From assembly GCA_004565275.1 (NCBI GenBank), contig SDOX01000007.1, positions 313,081-377,080 on the forward strand: a stretch of DNA of 64,000 bases, given 5' to 3'. Under the pieces are notes generated by a model. The model was not told where the DNA came from and did no database searches. It was given only the letters and a program-made list of their open reading frames with translations. Position numbers and translations under genes: made by a program. Positions 1,729 through 7,789 of this stretch are shown one piece after another; the first letter of the stretch is position 1; every line of letters begins with the position of its first letter. The DNA comes from Nannochloropsis salina CCMP1776 (taxonomy: Eukaryota > Sar > Eustigmatophyceae > Eustigmatales > Monodopsidaceae).

Positions 1729-3929
1729 ATGATGGAAGAGGCTTCCTGGTTACAAGAGCACTGTTATGACGCTGATGGAGAGAGCAATCGCGGCAGTGCC
1801 AACAGCAGCATTGGTAGCTCGGGCGGCCTTCGCAGCTTTGACGTTGAAGGAAGCGGAGGGGGAAACGCAGGAGAGCCTTCTCCACCTCAACGGGTTGTTA
1901 AGGTCAGTGTCCTTGCTCGACTGCTGTATCTGGGGGGCGTATGAAAGTATCACGTAGTCGGGAGATATGAGAGTGACGCTGCACCGGATATTTTCAGTGT
2001 AAGGCAAGCGCACACAGGTGCCTGAACTTAGGATTGTGCCCTCCCCTGGCTGCCCACAAAGGAGTTGCCGCAGTGCATGATGCGCGACTCATTTCCCCCC
2101 TGCCATGTACTTTGTGGGACACCTTGACCAGGGTGAGAGCGATCTGCGCGCTATCAAGGCCCTTGTGCAGCAGTGGGCGGGTCCGTCCCTGCCGTCGCTG
2201 TCCTCCTCCCCGCTTACGTCTGAGCCGCTGCCCGCCAGCAGCAGCCAGAGCAGCAGCCAGAGCAGCAGCCAGAGCAGCAGCCACAGCAGCAGCCTAGAGA
2301 GCCTGAGCGTGGACAATGACGGGGTGCACGGCCACCACGGCAGTCTGAGTGGCACCGACGGCGACTCGGAGAGGGCGGGGGCTCGGGCCGTGGGGGCGGG
2401 AGGCTTCTTTCAAGACGTGGATTTGGAGGCCGGGGAGTCCCAGAGGCGGTCTGAAGGGGGTCCAGGCAGGCAGAAGCAGGATGCGGATCGCACCCTTTGC
2501 CTTATCTGTTACGAGGATTTTCCTCTCGAGGAGAAGCCGCCCCGGCTGCCCCTTCCTGCCCTCCACGGCCCCCCTGATCCCCCCACCAGGCCAAACACCT
2601 CGCCCGCCGCGCCCGCTCTCCCACCGCGCCCCTCGCCCAGACCCGCGTGCCCGCATTCCTTCTGCCGAAAATGCGTGGTGGCCTACCTGGAGACTCGCAT
2701 GCGGGAGGGGCGAACCGACTTTCCCTGTCCCATGCGGGGGGACGCGGACTGCCGGCATGCCTTCAGGTAGGGAGGGGCGGAGGGGCCGGTAGCGGGTGAT
2801 ACCAGAGTAGAGAGGGGCAGGAAGGCTGTCGCGGTACCTCGCTTTGAATCCATCCTGTTGACATCACCCACACCCACCTTCCTCCCCGGGAAACACTTTC
2901 CCTCCAGCCGGCATGCTCATTCCCCCTTCTTGCCCCCCCCCCACCCCCTCCTTCCTTCAACCTATCCTCCATAGTGAGAACCATCTCCGCGCCCTTGTGG
3001 ACCCAGACCTCTTTCAAAAACACGAGCAGAGGCTCAAGCTCCGCGCGCAGCCCTCCCTTCGCGAGTGCCCCGCCTGCCAGGCGGTGTGCGAGGGCGGTTC
3101 CAAGCGCCGCCCTCTCCTCGTCTGCGCCGCCTGCGGCCTCTCCTTTTGCTTCTTGCACGCCACCGCCCACCCCATGGGGAGTGAGGGCGGTGCCGGCTGC
3201 CGCCGCTACCTCCGCCAGGTGAAAGCGACGGATCGCGCCTCCAAGACGACCGTCCGGCGCATCAGCAAGCCCTGTCCCAAGTGCAAGGCCCCCACGGAGA
3301 AGAACGGCGGCTGCAACCACATCTCCTGCGCCCAATGTCGGCACGAATGGTGCTGGCTCTGCGAGCAGCGCTACACCCCCTACCACTACTCTCCGACCAA
3401 CATCTTTCTTGGCTGCCCGGGCGCCCAGTTTGTCGACTTTGGAGGTGGCGCGCGAGGGTGCTGCTGCCGTCTCGGTGCCCCCCTCTGCCGCCTGCTCCGG
3501 CTGCTCTTGGCGGGCATTTTGCTGCCCTTACCCTTTGCCTTGGGCGTGGTCGTGGGTGTGCTCGGCACCGTGCTCTGGCTGCCTGTGGGGGTTCTGTGGG
3601 CCTGTCTAGGGAAGCTCCTGGCCACCTGCCCCTCGGGGATGCCCTGCTTTGCGGGGGAATGGAACGCGTGGGACCTACTGTTCCCCCTCGTGAGCGGATC
3701 GCACACATTTCGACAGGGGAACGGGGCCATGGGCTTAGTGTACGTCTTCGTCTTCCTGGGCGCGGCGCCGCTGGTGCTGGTGGCCTCCTTGTTCCTTCAG
3801 GTTCTCTGGATGCCTCTGGCCTTGCTGGTTTTGGTGATACGGGCCTCGCGCCGACGTCGATTGCGCCCGTCCTTCGTGCTCGCCCCTATGCTCCTTATTA
3901 CCCACTTCCTGGACCTCGACGGCGAGTAG
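1729..3929 (+). CDS. RING-IBR-RING (RBR) E3 ubiquitin ligase with C-terminal membrane segments
   Basis: Proposed model: exons 1729-1902, 2132-2766 and 2975-3929, giving 587 aa. The second intron (CAG|GTAGGG to CCATAG) is secure, because joining AG+T gives RHAFSENHLRAL, the usual RING1-to-IBR linker. The first intron (AAG|GTCAGT to GACCAG) is phase-consistent but less sure; translation could instead begin at ATG 2105. RING1 starts CLICYEDF and continues through CPHSFCRKC and CPMRGDADC after a proline-rich insert. The IBR is CPACQAVC...CAACGLSFCFLH. RING2/Rcat is CPKC...GGCNHISCAQCRHEWCWLC, where the Cys of GGCNH is the expected ubiquitin-thioester residue. Several hydrophobic segments follow (LLAGILLPLPFALGVVVGVL; VYVFVFLGAAPLVLVASLF), an arrangement like RNF19-type membrane RBR ligases. 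It probably ubiquitinates proteins at an internal membrane; the substrate cannot be seen. Confidence 0.85.
2237..2293 (+). repeat. AGC-rich 12-base tandem repeat inside the RBR ligase gene
   Basis: Four near-identical 12-base units of the form AGCAGCAGCCAG lie in the coding frame and encode a Ser/Gln tract (SSQSSSQSSSQSSSHSSS) upstream of RING1. The length stays a multiple of three, so unit gain or loss would keep the frame. Confidence 0.85.
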
Positions 3930-4566: not shown

Positions 4567-5479
4567 ATGATGAATGCGGCAACGATGGCGACGAGAAGAA
4601 GGTTGCTGGCATTTCCTCCCGTTGCACCCAAGGCGCTTGCGGGGGCTGTTGATAGTGCATTGAATACAGCGAGAAATTCCGGGAAGCTGAGCACCTTTCC
4701 TCGTCCCTCAAAACGTGTGCCAAGACAGCACTACAACGAGGCGTGTGCACGTGCATTCCACGGTTCGGTGTCTCTCCGCATGGCGGAGGTGGTGATGACG
4801 GTACCGAGGTCAGTCTTGAGGGATTGGGGGCTTGCGAGGTGAAGATGCATGTCTTGGGTCGACGCAAACCCTCACGGCACGAACCTTTCCCCGACCTGAC
4901 AGCATGGGCGACTCAATTACTGAAGGGACCATAAGGTCGTGGGAGAAAAAAGTCGGAGAAGCCGTGGCCTTAGACGACGTGGTGGTGGTAATCGAGACGG
5001 ACAAGGTCTCGGTGGACATTCGGGCTTCCAACTCGGGCGTTCTGGTCGAGCAATACGCGGCCGTCGACGATAACGTGGAGGTCGGTGCCAAACTCTTGAA
5101 GATCGATACGCAGGCCGCCGCTTCTGCTCCCAGCTCCGCTTCCGCCTCCAGCCCGCCGGCCCCTCCCACGCCCGGGAACCCCCCCCCGCCTTCTGATGAG
5201 GCAAACCCCGCCCCTCCCCCCACAGACGCCCCTCCCGCCCACCGCACCCCTCTCATCAAGTTTCTGGGCAAGCGCTCCTTGATGCGGAAGCAGGACAGCA
5301 GCGCACAGGCCGCCGCGCCTCCTCCGCCCGCCAGGTCCCCCTCTCTCCCCGCACGGCATGAGGACTCGAGGAGCACGCCGGGCGTCAAGACCTTCATAGA
5401 GCTCCCGCCCAGATTCGGGCACCCACCCGTGACCGAGGAGGAGATGGAGGCGGTGGAGAGTGGCGGGGCGACCCTGTGA
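4567..5479 (+). CDS. Mitochondrial lipoyl-domain/KGD4 fusion protein, putative E3-recruiting subunit of 2-oxoglutarate dehydrogenase
   Basis: Two exons, 4567-4808 and 4903-5479, encode 272 aa. The intron (CCGAG|GTCAGT to CTGACAG) restores AG+C = Ser and the family motif VPSMGDSITEG. Residues 1-70 are Arg/Ala/Ser-rich and acid-poor, typical of a mitochondrial presequence. Residues 77-150 are an E2o-type lipoyl domain with the lipoyl-lysine motif ETDKVSVDI (Lys115). An Ala/Pro linker follows. Residues 196-211 (TPLIKFLGKRSLMRKQ) and 245-269 (FIELPPRFGHPP, TEEEMEAVESGGA) match the two conserved blocks of KGD4/Ymr31/MRPS36, the small eukaryotic subunit that tethers E3 (dihydrolipoamide dehydrogenase) to the 2-oxoglutarate dehydrogenase core. 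No peripheral subunit-binding domain and no catalytic HxxxDG acyltransferase domain follow; the frame simply ends. Inference: a lipoylated E3-binding protein analogous to PDHX of pyruvate dehydrogenase. Its 3' end faces that of the Cwc2 gene, 203 bases away. Confidence 0.88.
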
Positions 5480-5682: not shown

Positions 5683-7789
5683 TTAGCCTCCGTCCTCTTC
5701 CACTTCAGTCGGCCCCCTCCTGGTCCTCCCCTTCCCTTCCCCTTTCCCCCGTCTCCCCCCCCCCCCCTCCAAGCGCCCCAAGAGCCACATTTCCCTCGCT
5801 GTCAGTGAGGGGGTCGCGGCCTTCCTCCACTGAAGGAGCCCCCCCTCCCCCCCTCCCTCACCGCCTCCACCGCCTCCCCCTCCTCCCCCTCCCCCGGGAC
5901 GGTCCCAGCTCGTCTTTCCCGTGCCCGCCTGGACGTAGTAGTATGCCTGATGCACGGGGTCGAACACGGCTGTCCACTCACCTCCCTCACGCGCCCCCTC
6001 CGCCTCTCTCTCGTACTGCTCGTCGGTGTCCGGGTAGCCCTCCGCCCCGTCCTCCCCCCCCTCGTCTCCTCCCTCCCCTCGCGCCCGCTTTTTCGGTGGC
6101 GGCAGCGCGTAGTTCTCTGGACACCGGAAGGCAGGGGCCTGCAACGCCACGCCCTGAGCCTGTAGTAAGACCATGGCGGCGTCAAGATTGGAGCGCGCCA
6201 CCGCCTCCTGGGCCGCCGGGTTCGGGTCGTCCATAGCCCACTTCACGTTCAGCGTTTCCTTCCCCGCCAGCGCCTGGTTGGCCATGGCCTCCTTCGCGAA
6301 CTCGCAGTTGCTGCGGAGACGGAACCTGGGGGGCGGGTCGAAGGCGAAGGGGGAGGACGGAGGGGAGGGAAATGTGAGGGTTTCCGAAGGAGGGCAGGCA
6401 GGAGGGTCGGGGTCTGGAGGCAATAGCCCCGACATGCCCCGCCCCCACAGAGCACCAGGATCCCCCTTAACGAGCCAAGATGCATGGCGCGAAAGCAAGG
6501 GCAGCGAGGACCAACATCGCGACACAACGCCAGTGCCACGCGCGCCCTCCTCCCTCCCGCCCTCCCGCCCTCCCTCCCTCCCTCCCGCCCTCCCTCCCTC
6601 TCCGACCTGACGAACGCCGCGGAGATCCGAGGGACGAAGTTCACGTGCTCTACCTCCCCCCACTCTCCGAACTGCTCCCGGACCACCGCTTCCACCTCCC
6701 GTTGGTCCGCATAAGCGGCCTTTAGGATGCCTCCCACGTAGAGGGTGCGGGAGGGGCGGGTGAAGGAGCCGACGCCGTCCATGTCGTCCCGGTGGCCCGC
6801 GTGCCGCTCGCGCCCGAAACAGTCGTGCAGCTCCCCCGCCGCCGCATCCTCCTTGACCGTGGGGATCCGGTGGAAGTAGAGGCAGTCCGCGCCGCGCGCA
6901 CACGCCCCTCGGGCGAAATGGATGCAGAAGAAGCGGCTGTTGGCGTCGACGGAGTCAGCACGGGTCCGCCCTGCGTCCAGAGTCAGCACGCAGCGGGTCT
7001 CCGCGGGCTCCCGGCCCCGGCCCTGGCGCCAGTGCTCCCCCGTGTACTTGCCGTACCAGATGTTGTATTCGTTTGCGCCCTCCAATACGGACCGTCCCGC
7101 CTCCAGACAAGCCTTCTGTTTCCGCGCCGGTCGCTGCAAATAGCGCTCGTTCGCCTCCAGGTACCTGGCTGCTCCTTGCCCGGCGGCCCCCCGGCCGTAC
7201 CAGCCAGAGGCCATGGGCGCCTCACCCATCTCAGCGGGCCTGTCCCATCGGGTCTCCCCCGTCTGTGTGTGGTAGTAGTAGAGCTGCTGCGTGCTCGCGT
7301 CGACCGTCTCGCGCCAGGCGTGCCAGGTGTCGGGGAGGGTCGAGGGGGAGGGTCCGTCCCAGGCCGAGGCGGAGGGGAGGCTGGAGGGGATGACGTGCTC
7401 GGTGCCTTCGGGCTTGCTCGCACGGCAGCGGCTGCACTTGGGCCGAGAGGCATAGTTGTCAAACTTGCACTTAGGGCAGGCCCAGTTTCGTTCGTAGACG
7501 GTGTAGGAGGCCCCGACCTCGCTGATGAGAGTGGAGGGAGGCAGATTGAGGGAGACGAGGAAGACGGAAAGCGTCACACTCAGAAAATAATGGTACGGAC
7601 AGCGTCAACGCATGGTCGAAGCCCGCGATCGGAAACGTGAAAATAAGCAGAGGTTTCAGTGGGTGACAGCGAGGGACAGCGGGCAGACTGGGAATCCTCT
7701 CCGATGGCACCACCGCCTACCTACCCTAAGGTGGCGATCCCGGTCACGTCCCTCCGCGTCACATTTCCAAAGCTTGAAGCATTTGCCAT
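5683..7789 (-). CDS. CWC2: Cwc2/RBM22-type pre-mRNA splicing factor with RanBP2 zinc finger and two WW domains
   Basis: Three exons, 7789-7725, 7521-6607 and 6325-5683, encode 540 aa. Both introns are phase 2. The first join gives ATLGEVGASY, which supplies an ATG start; the second gives RISAAFVRFRLRSNCEF, an intact RRM strand. In order: RanBP2-type finger WACPKCKFDNYASRPKCSRC (about 35-55); WW domain about 87-117 (LYYYHTQTGETRWDRP); Cwc2 Torus region with YNIWYGKYTGEHWRQ and ETRC (about 172-200); CCCH finger FFCIHFARGACARGADCLYFH (about 219-238); HDCFGRERHAGHRDDMDGVGSF; RRM starting RTLYVGGI (about 281-360); Gly/Glu linker; second WW near the C-terminus (YYYVQAGTGKTSWDRP). Cwc2 acts in the NineTeen-complex-related part of the spliceosome and contacts U6 and the pre-mRNA. 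The N-terminal finger and both WW domains are additions to the yeast or human layout. Confidence 0.9.
6545..6602. repeat. CCCT-rich simple repeat in intron 2 of the Cwc2 gene
   Basis: A pyrimidine-only stretch on the plus strand (units of CCCTC and CCCGC) lies just inside the donor side of the Cwc2 intron. Translated, it would give an REGG repeat, which is an artefact of reading through the intron. Confidence 0.7.

Follow-up and report, generated by a model that had tools for sequence, protein, structure and literature searches.

How E3 is attached in the eukaryotic 2-oxoglutarate dehydrogenase complex is still debated, because eukaryotic E2o has lost the E3-binding domain, and a gene of the eustigmatophyte alga Nannochloropsis salina CCMP1776 raises the question of whether the adaptor KGD4, known from yeast and mammals as a protein with no lipoyl arm, can also carry an arm of its own. 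The window analysed here is a stretch of 64,000 nucleotides of GenBank contig SDOX01000007.1 (positions 313,081 to 377,080, forward strand), and all coordinates below are counted from its first letter. The gene in question occupies 4567-5479 on the plus strand (contig C78 of assembly G000, which comprises 26.5 Mb in 103 contigs), consists of two exons and encodes a protein of 272 residues in which a lipoyl domain of the E2o type precedes both conserved blocks of KGD4. The answer that we regard as the probable one is that this gene encodes the KGD4 subunit, which tethers E3, of the mitochondrial 2-oxoglutarate dehydrogenase complex, equipped with its own lipoyl arm.

A lipoyl domain and both KGD4 blocks in one chain

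Exon 1 (4567..4808, plus strand) begins with the start ATG and encodes a putative Arg-rich presequence of mitochondrial type, in which RAFHGS occurs, together with VVMTVP, where the lipoyl domain begins. It is followed by a phase 2 intron of 94 bases (4809..4902, GTCAGT...CTGACAG) and by exon 2 (4903..5479), where most of the lipoyl domain, a linker and the whole KGD4 part are encoded in one open frame that ends at the TGA stop codon at 5477-5479. The scanned stretches contain three GT donors and one AG acceptor, and only one of the three pairs gives an in-frame product, namely the 272-residue protein obtained when exon 1 ends at 4808 (GAG/GTCAGT) and exon 2 starts at 4903 (GACAG/C). The splice is further supported by P0009, a relative of 286 residues, since it contains the identical join RAFH...RM(M)AEVVMTVPSMGDSITEG within one chain. 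The first-pass annotation, which had been made from the letters of the window alone, had proposed the same gene, and its coordinates, splice and protein all agree with those found here. Moreover, exon 2 reads on without a break from the last part of codon 81, past MGDSITEG, as far as the stop codon, and an open frame at 4820-5479, which contains this exon, spans the protein from MGDSITEG of the lipoyl domain to the end of the KGD4 part. Nearly all of the lipoyl domain and both KGD4 blocks therefore lie in a single exon, so that the fusion is independent of the splice, which contributes the presequence and the first strand of the lipoyl domain.

The first 66 residues, including RAFHGS, hold 11 Arg and Lys against two Asp and Glu. 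An N-terminus rich in Arg and Lys and poor in acidic residues is typical of mitochondrial presequences, and this one can be described as presequence-like. The lipoyl domain follows at residues 76-148 (4792..5104, with the intron at 4809-4902 inside) and matches the Pfam family Biotin_lipoyl (PF00364) with 56.5 bits against a cut-off of 22.1. The KGD4 part matches Kgd4-YMR31 (PF10937) in two stretches, of which the best is 247-270, with 37 bits against a cut-off of 22 and E = 1.2e-8. Matches of this strength rule out chance. The identification of the C-terminal blocks as KGD4, which the annotation had made by eye, is also borne out by a profile-profile comparison (hhalign) of 14 KGD4 pieces of the fusion type, one of them a chytrid row, with nine fungal KGD4 proteins, which gave a probability of 99.2% over the KGD4 part. 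In turn, the lipoyl domain is of the E2o type, as had been claimed: it is 58.5% identical to the lipoyl domain of the alga's own E2o and 26.8-29.6% identical to five other lipoyl domains of the same genome, a comparison in which one of the three plastid domains was lost in cutting. The protein also lacks an acyltransferase domain, in agreement with the earlier statement, as neither 2-oxoacid_dh (PF00198) nor an E3-binding domain (E3_binding, PF02817) was matched in the Pfam scan at E<=10.

Within the lipoyl domain, the predicted lipoylation site is Lys115 (codon at 5003..5005) in the motif ETDKVSVDI, whose ETDK is conserved in relatives. The domain is connected to the KGD4 part by a linker of 45 residues (149-193; 5105..5239) that contains 16 Pro and 11 Ala. 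KGD4 block 1, HRTPLIKFLGKRS, covers residues 194-206 (5240..5278) and is taken as the equivalent of the N-terminal part of MRPS36 that, in the available passages of PMC9974300, is cross-linked to E3. A variable linker (residues 207-246; 5279..5398) separates it from block 2, ELPPRFGHPPVTEEEMEAVESGGATL (residues 247-272; 5399..5476), which is taken, on the same partial source, as the equivalent of the C-terminal part of MRPS36 cross-linked to E2o.

An AlphaFold model was computed for P0001, the 191-residue form of the protein without exon 1, together with 45 fusion proteins, and it has a mean pLDDT of 69.8 and a pTM of 0.37. Residues 11-70 of P0001, which cover most of the lipoyl domain, are confidently modelled (block means of 87-92) and rich in strands, and the lipoyl lysine (Lys34 of P0001, equal to Lys115) is placed in a turn between the strands at 26-31 and 36-40, the usual position of this residue in lipoyl domains. 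The linkers are mostly of low confidence, the one that follows the lipoyl domain having no regular structure, and parts of the KGD4 blocks attain means between 71 and 79. A single short helix (178-185) is predicted over the EEEMEAVE part of block 2. A sequence search of the PDB with the fungal KGD4 protein P0003 gave no match. The 272-residue query matched E2 and E3BP chains, further proteins of the lipoyl or biotinyl kind and a small number of weak, unrelated chains, and no chain named KGD4 or MRPS36 was among its matches.

Recurrence and origin of the fusion

The arrangement is not confined to this alga. When the window protein's KGD4 part was used as the query of a protein search, three of 150 candidates had E<=10, namely the protein itself, a fungal KGD4 and P0002 (EukProt, E 0.011), which is a second protein with a lipoyl domain and a KGD4 part. 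With the KGD4 parts of these two fusions as queries, 32 of 559 candidates had E<=10. The arrangement is shared by six close relatives, P0004-P0009 (E 2.9e-16 to 1.7e-13), and was also found in P0024 of the chytrid Terramyces sp. JEL0728 (E 0.019; Kgd4 31.3 bits, lipoyl 62.6 bits). P0028 of Pelagophyceae sp. CCMP2097 was weak in the search (E 1.4), has a lipoyl match of 50.3 bits and shares 46% identity across 189 alignment columns with P0018, a protein with a lipoyl domain and a KGD4 part whose Kgd4 score of 22 bits lies at the cut-off. The protein P0033 of the oomycete Pythium insidiosum (E 7.3) has no Pfam lipoyl match and aligns to the window protein from the tail of the lipoyl domain through block 1 (39% over 84 columns), so that its lipoyl domain is a reading of an incomplete protein. 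P0135 of the brown alga Laminaria digitata (Kgd4 24.4 bits) starts in a tail that, read by eye, is like that of a lipoyl domain. Moreover, P0057, which is labelled as a complete open reading frame of an MMETSP transcript, contains a lipoyl domain (48.6 bits) and a KGD4 part, and is thus evidence at the RNA level for the fusion in another protist.

Of 5898 candidates in a search with the 14-piece profile (A2), 803 had E<=10. The PF00364 label was carried by 49 of the best 120 of the 803, a proportion that is not a frequency, as the first row of A2 includes half a lipoyl domain, which favours proteins that bear one, and several of the proteins listed are themselves rows of A2. In total, 136 proteins were collected, including the P0001 form of the window protein: 52 of them combine the lipoyl motif with KGD4, 20 have a tail like that of a lipoyl domain before KGD4, and 64 have KGD4 with no lipoyl domain recognised in the protein as called, a class in which dikaryan fungi stand beside many metagenome gene calls possibly cut by introns, true stand-alone proteins and cut fusions being inseparable there. 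The figure of 52 in 136 counts proteins and not lineages. The first-pass annotation was right that the fusion is real, with the correction that it is not peculiar to this alga and recurs in dozens of proteins. Several fusions carry a database label that calls them an E2 component of 2-oxoglutarate or pyruvate/2-oxoglutarate dehydrogenase, and they may have been overlooked for this reason.

Conservation was measured in an alignment of 45 of the 52 fusions (A5), from which a near copy (P0005), the chytrid protein (P0024), three proteins with a cut lipoyl domain (P0017, P0051 and P0093) and two with a broken end of this domain (P0064 and P0079) were left out. Mean column conservation is 0.68 in the lipoyl domain, 0.84 in block 1 and 0.70 in block 2, and 0.32 and 0.36 in the two linkers. 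At E<=0.01, Pfam recognises the lipoyl domain in all 45 and Kgd4 in 41, not all of these above the curated Kgd4 cut-off. The presence of ETDK was required for a protein to be counted among the 52 and is uninformative within that set. It occurs in 49 of the 49 relatives labelled PF00364 among the best 120 of 803. Judged from these sequences, the arrangement is conserved, with the window gene and its strong relatives as the basis of the main case. The annotation had taken the fusion as evidence that KGD4 belongs with 2-oxoglutarate dehydrogenase, and this argument is a good one, made stronger by the conservation.

As regards the origin of the lipoyl domain, the trees draw on an alignment of 84 columns, with five E2o sequences and a single chytrid gene model. 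In a first tree, the chytrid domain stood apart from the other fusions with weak support. The second tree contained 43 fusion rows, six near copies or broken rows and the alga's own E2p, E2b and plastid domains having been dropped. In this tree, the E2o rows are interspersed with the fusion rows, 17 of the 45 inner branches are left open, and the chytrid domain pairs with the E2o of Chaetomium with support of 100/98.5. The chytrid domain is also 61.4% identical to that of Chaetomium E2o, against 48.6% to that of the window protein. A constraint that holds all fusions together is 13.8 log units worse and is not rejected (p-AU 0.121), and one that holds together all fusions except the chytrid is 0.87 log units worse (p-AU 0.451). 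We favour, without regarding it as proven, two origins of the fusion, one of a stramenopile type and one in chytrids, each from the lipoyl domain of the organism's own E2o, although P0024 could also be a chimeric gene model instead of a second fusion that arose independently. Nothing was found in favour of the further possibility that the fusion dates back to the common ancestor of all eukaryotes. A broader generalisation, to be held tentatively and with some doubt, is that many eukaryotes, and stramenopiles above all, have an E3-binding protein of 2-oxoglutarate dehydrogenase with its own arm, a layout like that of PDHX made from non-homologous parts, which would have been invented at least twice (in an ancestor of the stramenopile type and in chytrid fungi) from the lipoyl domain of their own E2o. 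On this view, the armless form of KGD4 in yeast and mammals would be one solution among several rather than the general eukaryotic one.

Partner genes and the proposed function

The annotation had left open whether a separate complete E2o exists, and the genome answers this in the affirmative. Matches to 2-oxoacid_dh occur at six places, which comprise five full genes and one weak match at C55 (24.7 bits). E2o is encoded by a gene of its own at C47 (TIGR01347, 490.5 bits against a cut-off of 378.65), with a lipoyl domain and a catalytic domain that contains DHRLIDG. E3_binding is matched in both E2p-type proteins (C42 and C72), in E2b (C93) and in SucB of E. coli, and was not matched in the alga's E2o at E<=1. 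This E2o is thus probably unable to hold E3 by itself, as no E3-binding domain is detectable in it, which fits the picture of a eukaryotic E2o in need of an adaptor that is drawn in the available part of PMC9974300. The fifth E2-type gene, at C35, encodes three lipoyl domains after a leader that, read by eye, is of plastid type. A mitochondrial-type E3 is encoded at C57 (TIGR01350, 553.3 bits against a cut-off of 408.8).

As a side observation, the E2p-type protein of C42 (G000:C42:449106-449807; L002 1501-3255, minus strand) reads SFDRRVLDEALA where that of C72 reads SCDHRVIDGAVG, and it has a weaker E3_binding match (32.4 bits against 51.8 in C72) and no DHRxxDG motif. Its sequence suggests that it may be the PDHX/E3BP of the alga.

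The genome was also searched for a stand-alone KGD4, a check that the annotation had proposed, and none besides the window gene was found with the KGD4 piece of the window protein or with a degenerate DNA pattern for IKFxGKR. The KGD4 piece matched the window gene and, weakly, C37 and C52 (E 0.09 and 0.22), where the frames as read do not resemble KGD4. The pattern matched the window gene and one site in C2, whose frame of 14 residues is not KGD4-like either. The Pfam Kgd4 profile and the fungal P0003 query missed even the window gene in its own genome, and their silence is not used here.

From these parts a mechanism can be proposed. The E2o core would be the docking site of KGD4 block 2, and the E3 dimer would be bound by block 1, roles that are transferred from MRPS36, whose N-terminus is cross-linked to E3 and whose C-terminus is cross-linked to E2o in bovine and mouse mitochondria (PMC9974300). 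The lipoyl domain, placed directly before the E3 anchor on its Pro- and Ala-rich linker of 45 residues and lipoylated at Lys115, would swing between E1o, E2o and the adjacent E3, carrying the succinyl group from E1o to E2o and being subsequently reoxidised by E3. Mitochondrial import, lipoylation, binding of E3 and E2o, membership of the complex and catalytic use of the arm are all predicted from sequence.

Several points weigh against this proposal. The adaptor role of MRPS36 is disputed, and a transfection study cited in the accessible text of PMC8146983 saw no gain in activity. Moreover, binding of E3 to the N-terminus of E1o has been described (PMC9681731, available in part). The KGD4 part of the model is only middling in confidence and the pTM is 0.37, while three of the recurrences discussed above score below the Kgd4 cut-off of 22 bits, namely P0028 (20.7 bits, just below it), P0057 (19.5 bits) and P0033 (15.4 bits). 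Finally, the enzyme expected to load the arm, E1o, was not seen in the assembly, although E2o, E3 and KGD4 are present. It was not found with PF16078, PF16870, TIGR00239 or SucA of E. coli, a result that is inconclusive as other E1 subunits were missed too, so that either the search or the assembly is leaky. PF16078 and PF16870 gave zero matches, and the frame at the sole place matched by both TIGR00239 and SucA is, read by eye, like E1p-alpha. A Transket_pyr search retrieved two transketolases, one DXS and a partial plastid-type E1-beta (named by eye), and neither mitochondrial E1p-beta nor E1b-beta was seen in it. Assembly gaps or splitting by introns may account for the missing E1o.

Among the other explanations, the KGD4 part could be an adaptor as proposed while the lipoyl domain serves mainly as a docking device, lipoylated or not, that is, as an unloaded anchor for E1o or E3 with no role in turnover. 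An anchoring role of unloaded lipoyl domains has been proposed for the Chaetomium complex, with an estimated 24 E2o arms and about four E3BPo (PMC10203282, in the part available), and yet the invariance of ETDK in the labelled relatives of the best 120 is what would be expected if lipoylation matters. We consider this explanation unlikely. A second one, which appears improbable, is that the protein serves a different lipoyl-dependent complex (that for pyruvate, branched-chain substrates or 2-oxoadipate), or is itself a lipoyl relay, as the H protein is in glycine cleavage, with the KGD4 homology as a docking tag only. The failure to detect E1o would suit this idea, as would a weak similarity to GCV_H (12.5 bits, under the cut-off of 22.2), but the lipoyl domain is of the E2o type by the identities given above, and the alga's E2p-type and E2b proteins already carry E3-binding domains.

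We give hardly any credence to an artefact, whether by mis-assembly, a wrong gene model or the reading together of two adjacent genes. Although the chytrid example depends on a single gene model, nearly all of the lipoyl domain and both KGD4 blocks of the window gene share one open exon, and the same arrangement is present in 52 of the 136 proteins, including the transcript-derived P0057 and the close relatives P0004-P0009. Equally hard to credit is a decaying, truncated copy of E2o that ran into a KGD4 gene and is itself without function: the lipoyl domain is indeed nearest to that of E2o among the alga's own domains compared, but it is conserved together with the blocks while the linkers are not, no other KGD4 gene was found in the genome, and many further proteins show the same arrangement. 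An armed KGD4 subunit of 2-oxoglutarate dehydrogenase is thus the reading with which we proceed.

The neighbouring frames of the window belong to other subjects. The upstream frame at 2862-3929 (plus strand) contains IBR domains, is like an RBR-type ubiquitin ligase and continues into hydrophobic segments. In the downstream frames at 6249-7604 and 5683-6954 (minus strand), a Torus domain (102.1 bits) was found besides WW and a RanBP-type zinc finger, which presumably make them similar to a Cwc2-type splicing factor, and the two frames are probably parts of a single gene, interrupted by an intron that contains ccctccctccc repeats.

Comparison with known systems

No protein that combines a lipoyl domain with KGD4 was found described in the open-licence PMC literature as far as this was searched. 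A survey of 304 MRPS36 homologues, for which more than 50% coverage of the query was required, contains no mention of 'fused', 'protist' or 'stramenopil' in the available portion of its text (PMC9974300). The fused KGD4 appears to be a component of the 2-oxoglutarate dehydrogenase machinery that has escaped notice. The conserved union of an E2o-type arm and KGD4 in one chain is independent evolutionary evidence that places KGD4 at the junction of E2o and E3, and it allows the arm to be separated from the anchor by mutation of a single protein. A form of this subunit that recurs in stramenopiles and in many metagenome eukaryotes also seems to be missing from models of the complex that were built on yeast and mammals.

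With the KGD4/Ymr31/MRPS36 family (PF10937), the fused protein shares both conserved blocks in the same order and a presequence-like N-terminus, and the alga resembles the organisms with these proteins in that its E2o has no detectable E3-binding domain. The described members are small and lack a lipoyl domain (MRPS36 has about 11 kDa according to the part of PMC9974300 available), whereas the fused protein has 272 residues with an N-terminal lipoyl domain and a linker. Small size and the lack of other domains describe the known members and are not a condition of PF10937. With E2o (DLST, SucB), it shares the lipoyl domain of E2o type and a linker rich in Pro and Ala, but the catalytic domain with HxxxDG is absent from it and is encoded by the separate E2o gene at C47.

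A longer protein that contains KGD4 blocks has been annotated in Chaetomium thermophilum as E3BPo, in the native 2-oxoglutarate dehydrogenase (PMC10203282, in the part available). There, the fusion partner is holocytochrome c synthase and there is no lipoyl domain; this fusion looks like a misannotation, as UniProt now holds two separate proteins (same partial source). The actinobacterial OdhA is likewise a domain-shuffled subunit of the same complex, although it joins the catalytic parts of E1o and E2o and contains no KGD4.

The closest comparison in layout is with E3BP/PDHX of pyruvate dehydrogenase, which the first-pass annotation had already drawn. It holds for the order of lipoyl arm, E3 anchor and core anchor (that of PDHX as given in the accessible text of PMC10156792) and for the expected lack of acyltransferase activity. 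As regards E3 delivery, lipoylation and membership of the complex, the likeness stands as a prediction. The anchors themselves are unrelated in sequence: E3BP/PDHX uses a PSBD for E3 and an inactive E2-like fold for the core (same partial source), and in the fused protein KGD4 blocks would take the place of both. It is thus, by its sequence, not a member of the E3BP/PDHX family, since a PSBD and an E2-like core were tested for and not found, but by analogy it may work like PDHX, holding an arm, an E3 anchor and a core anchor in a single chain.
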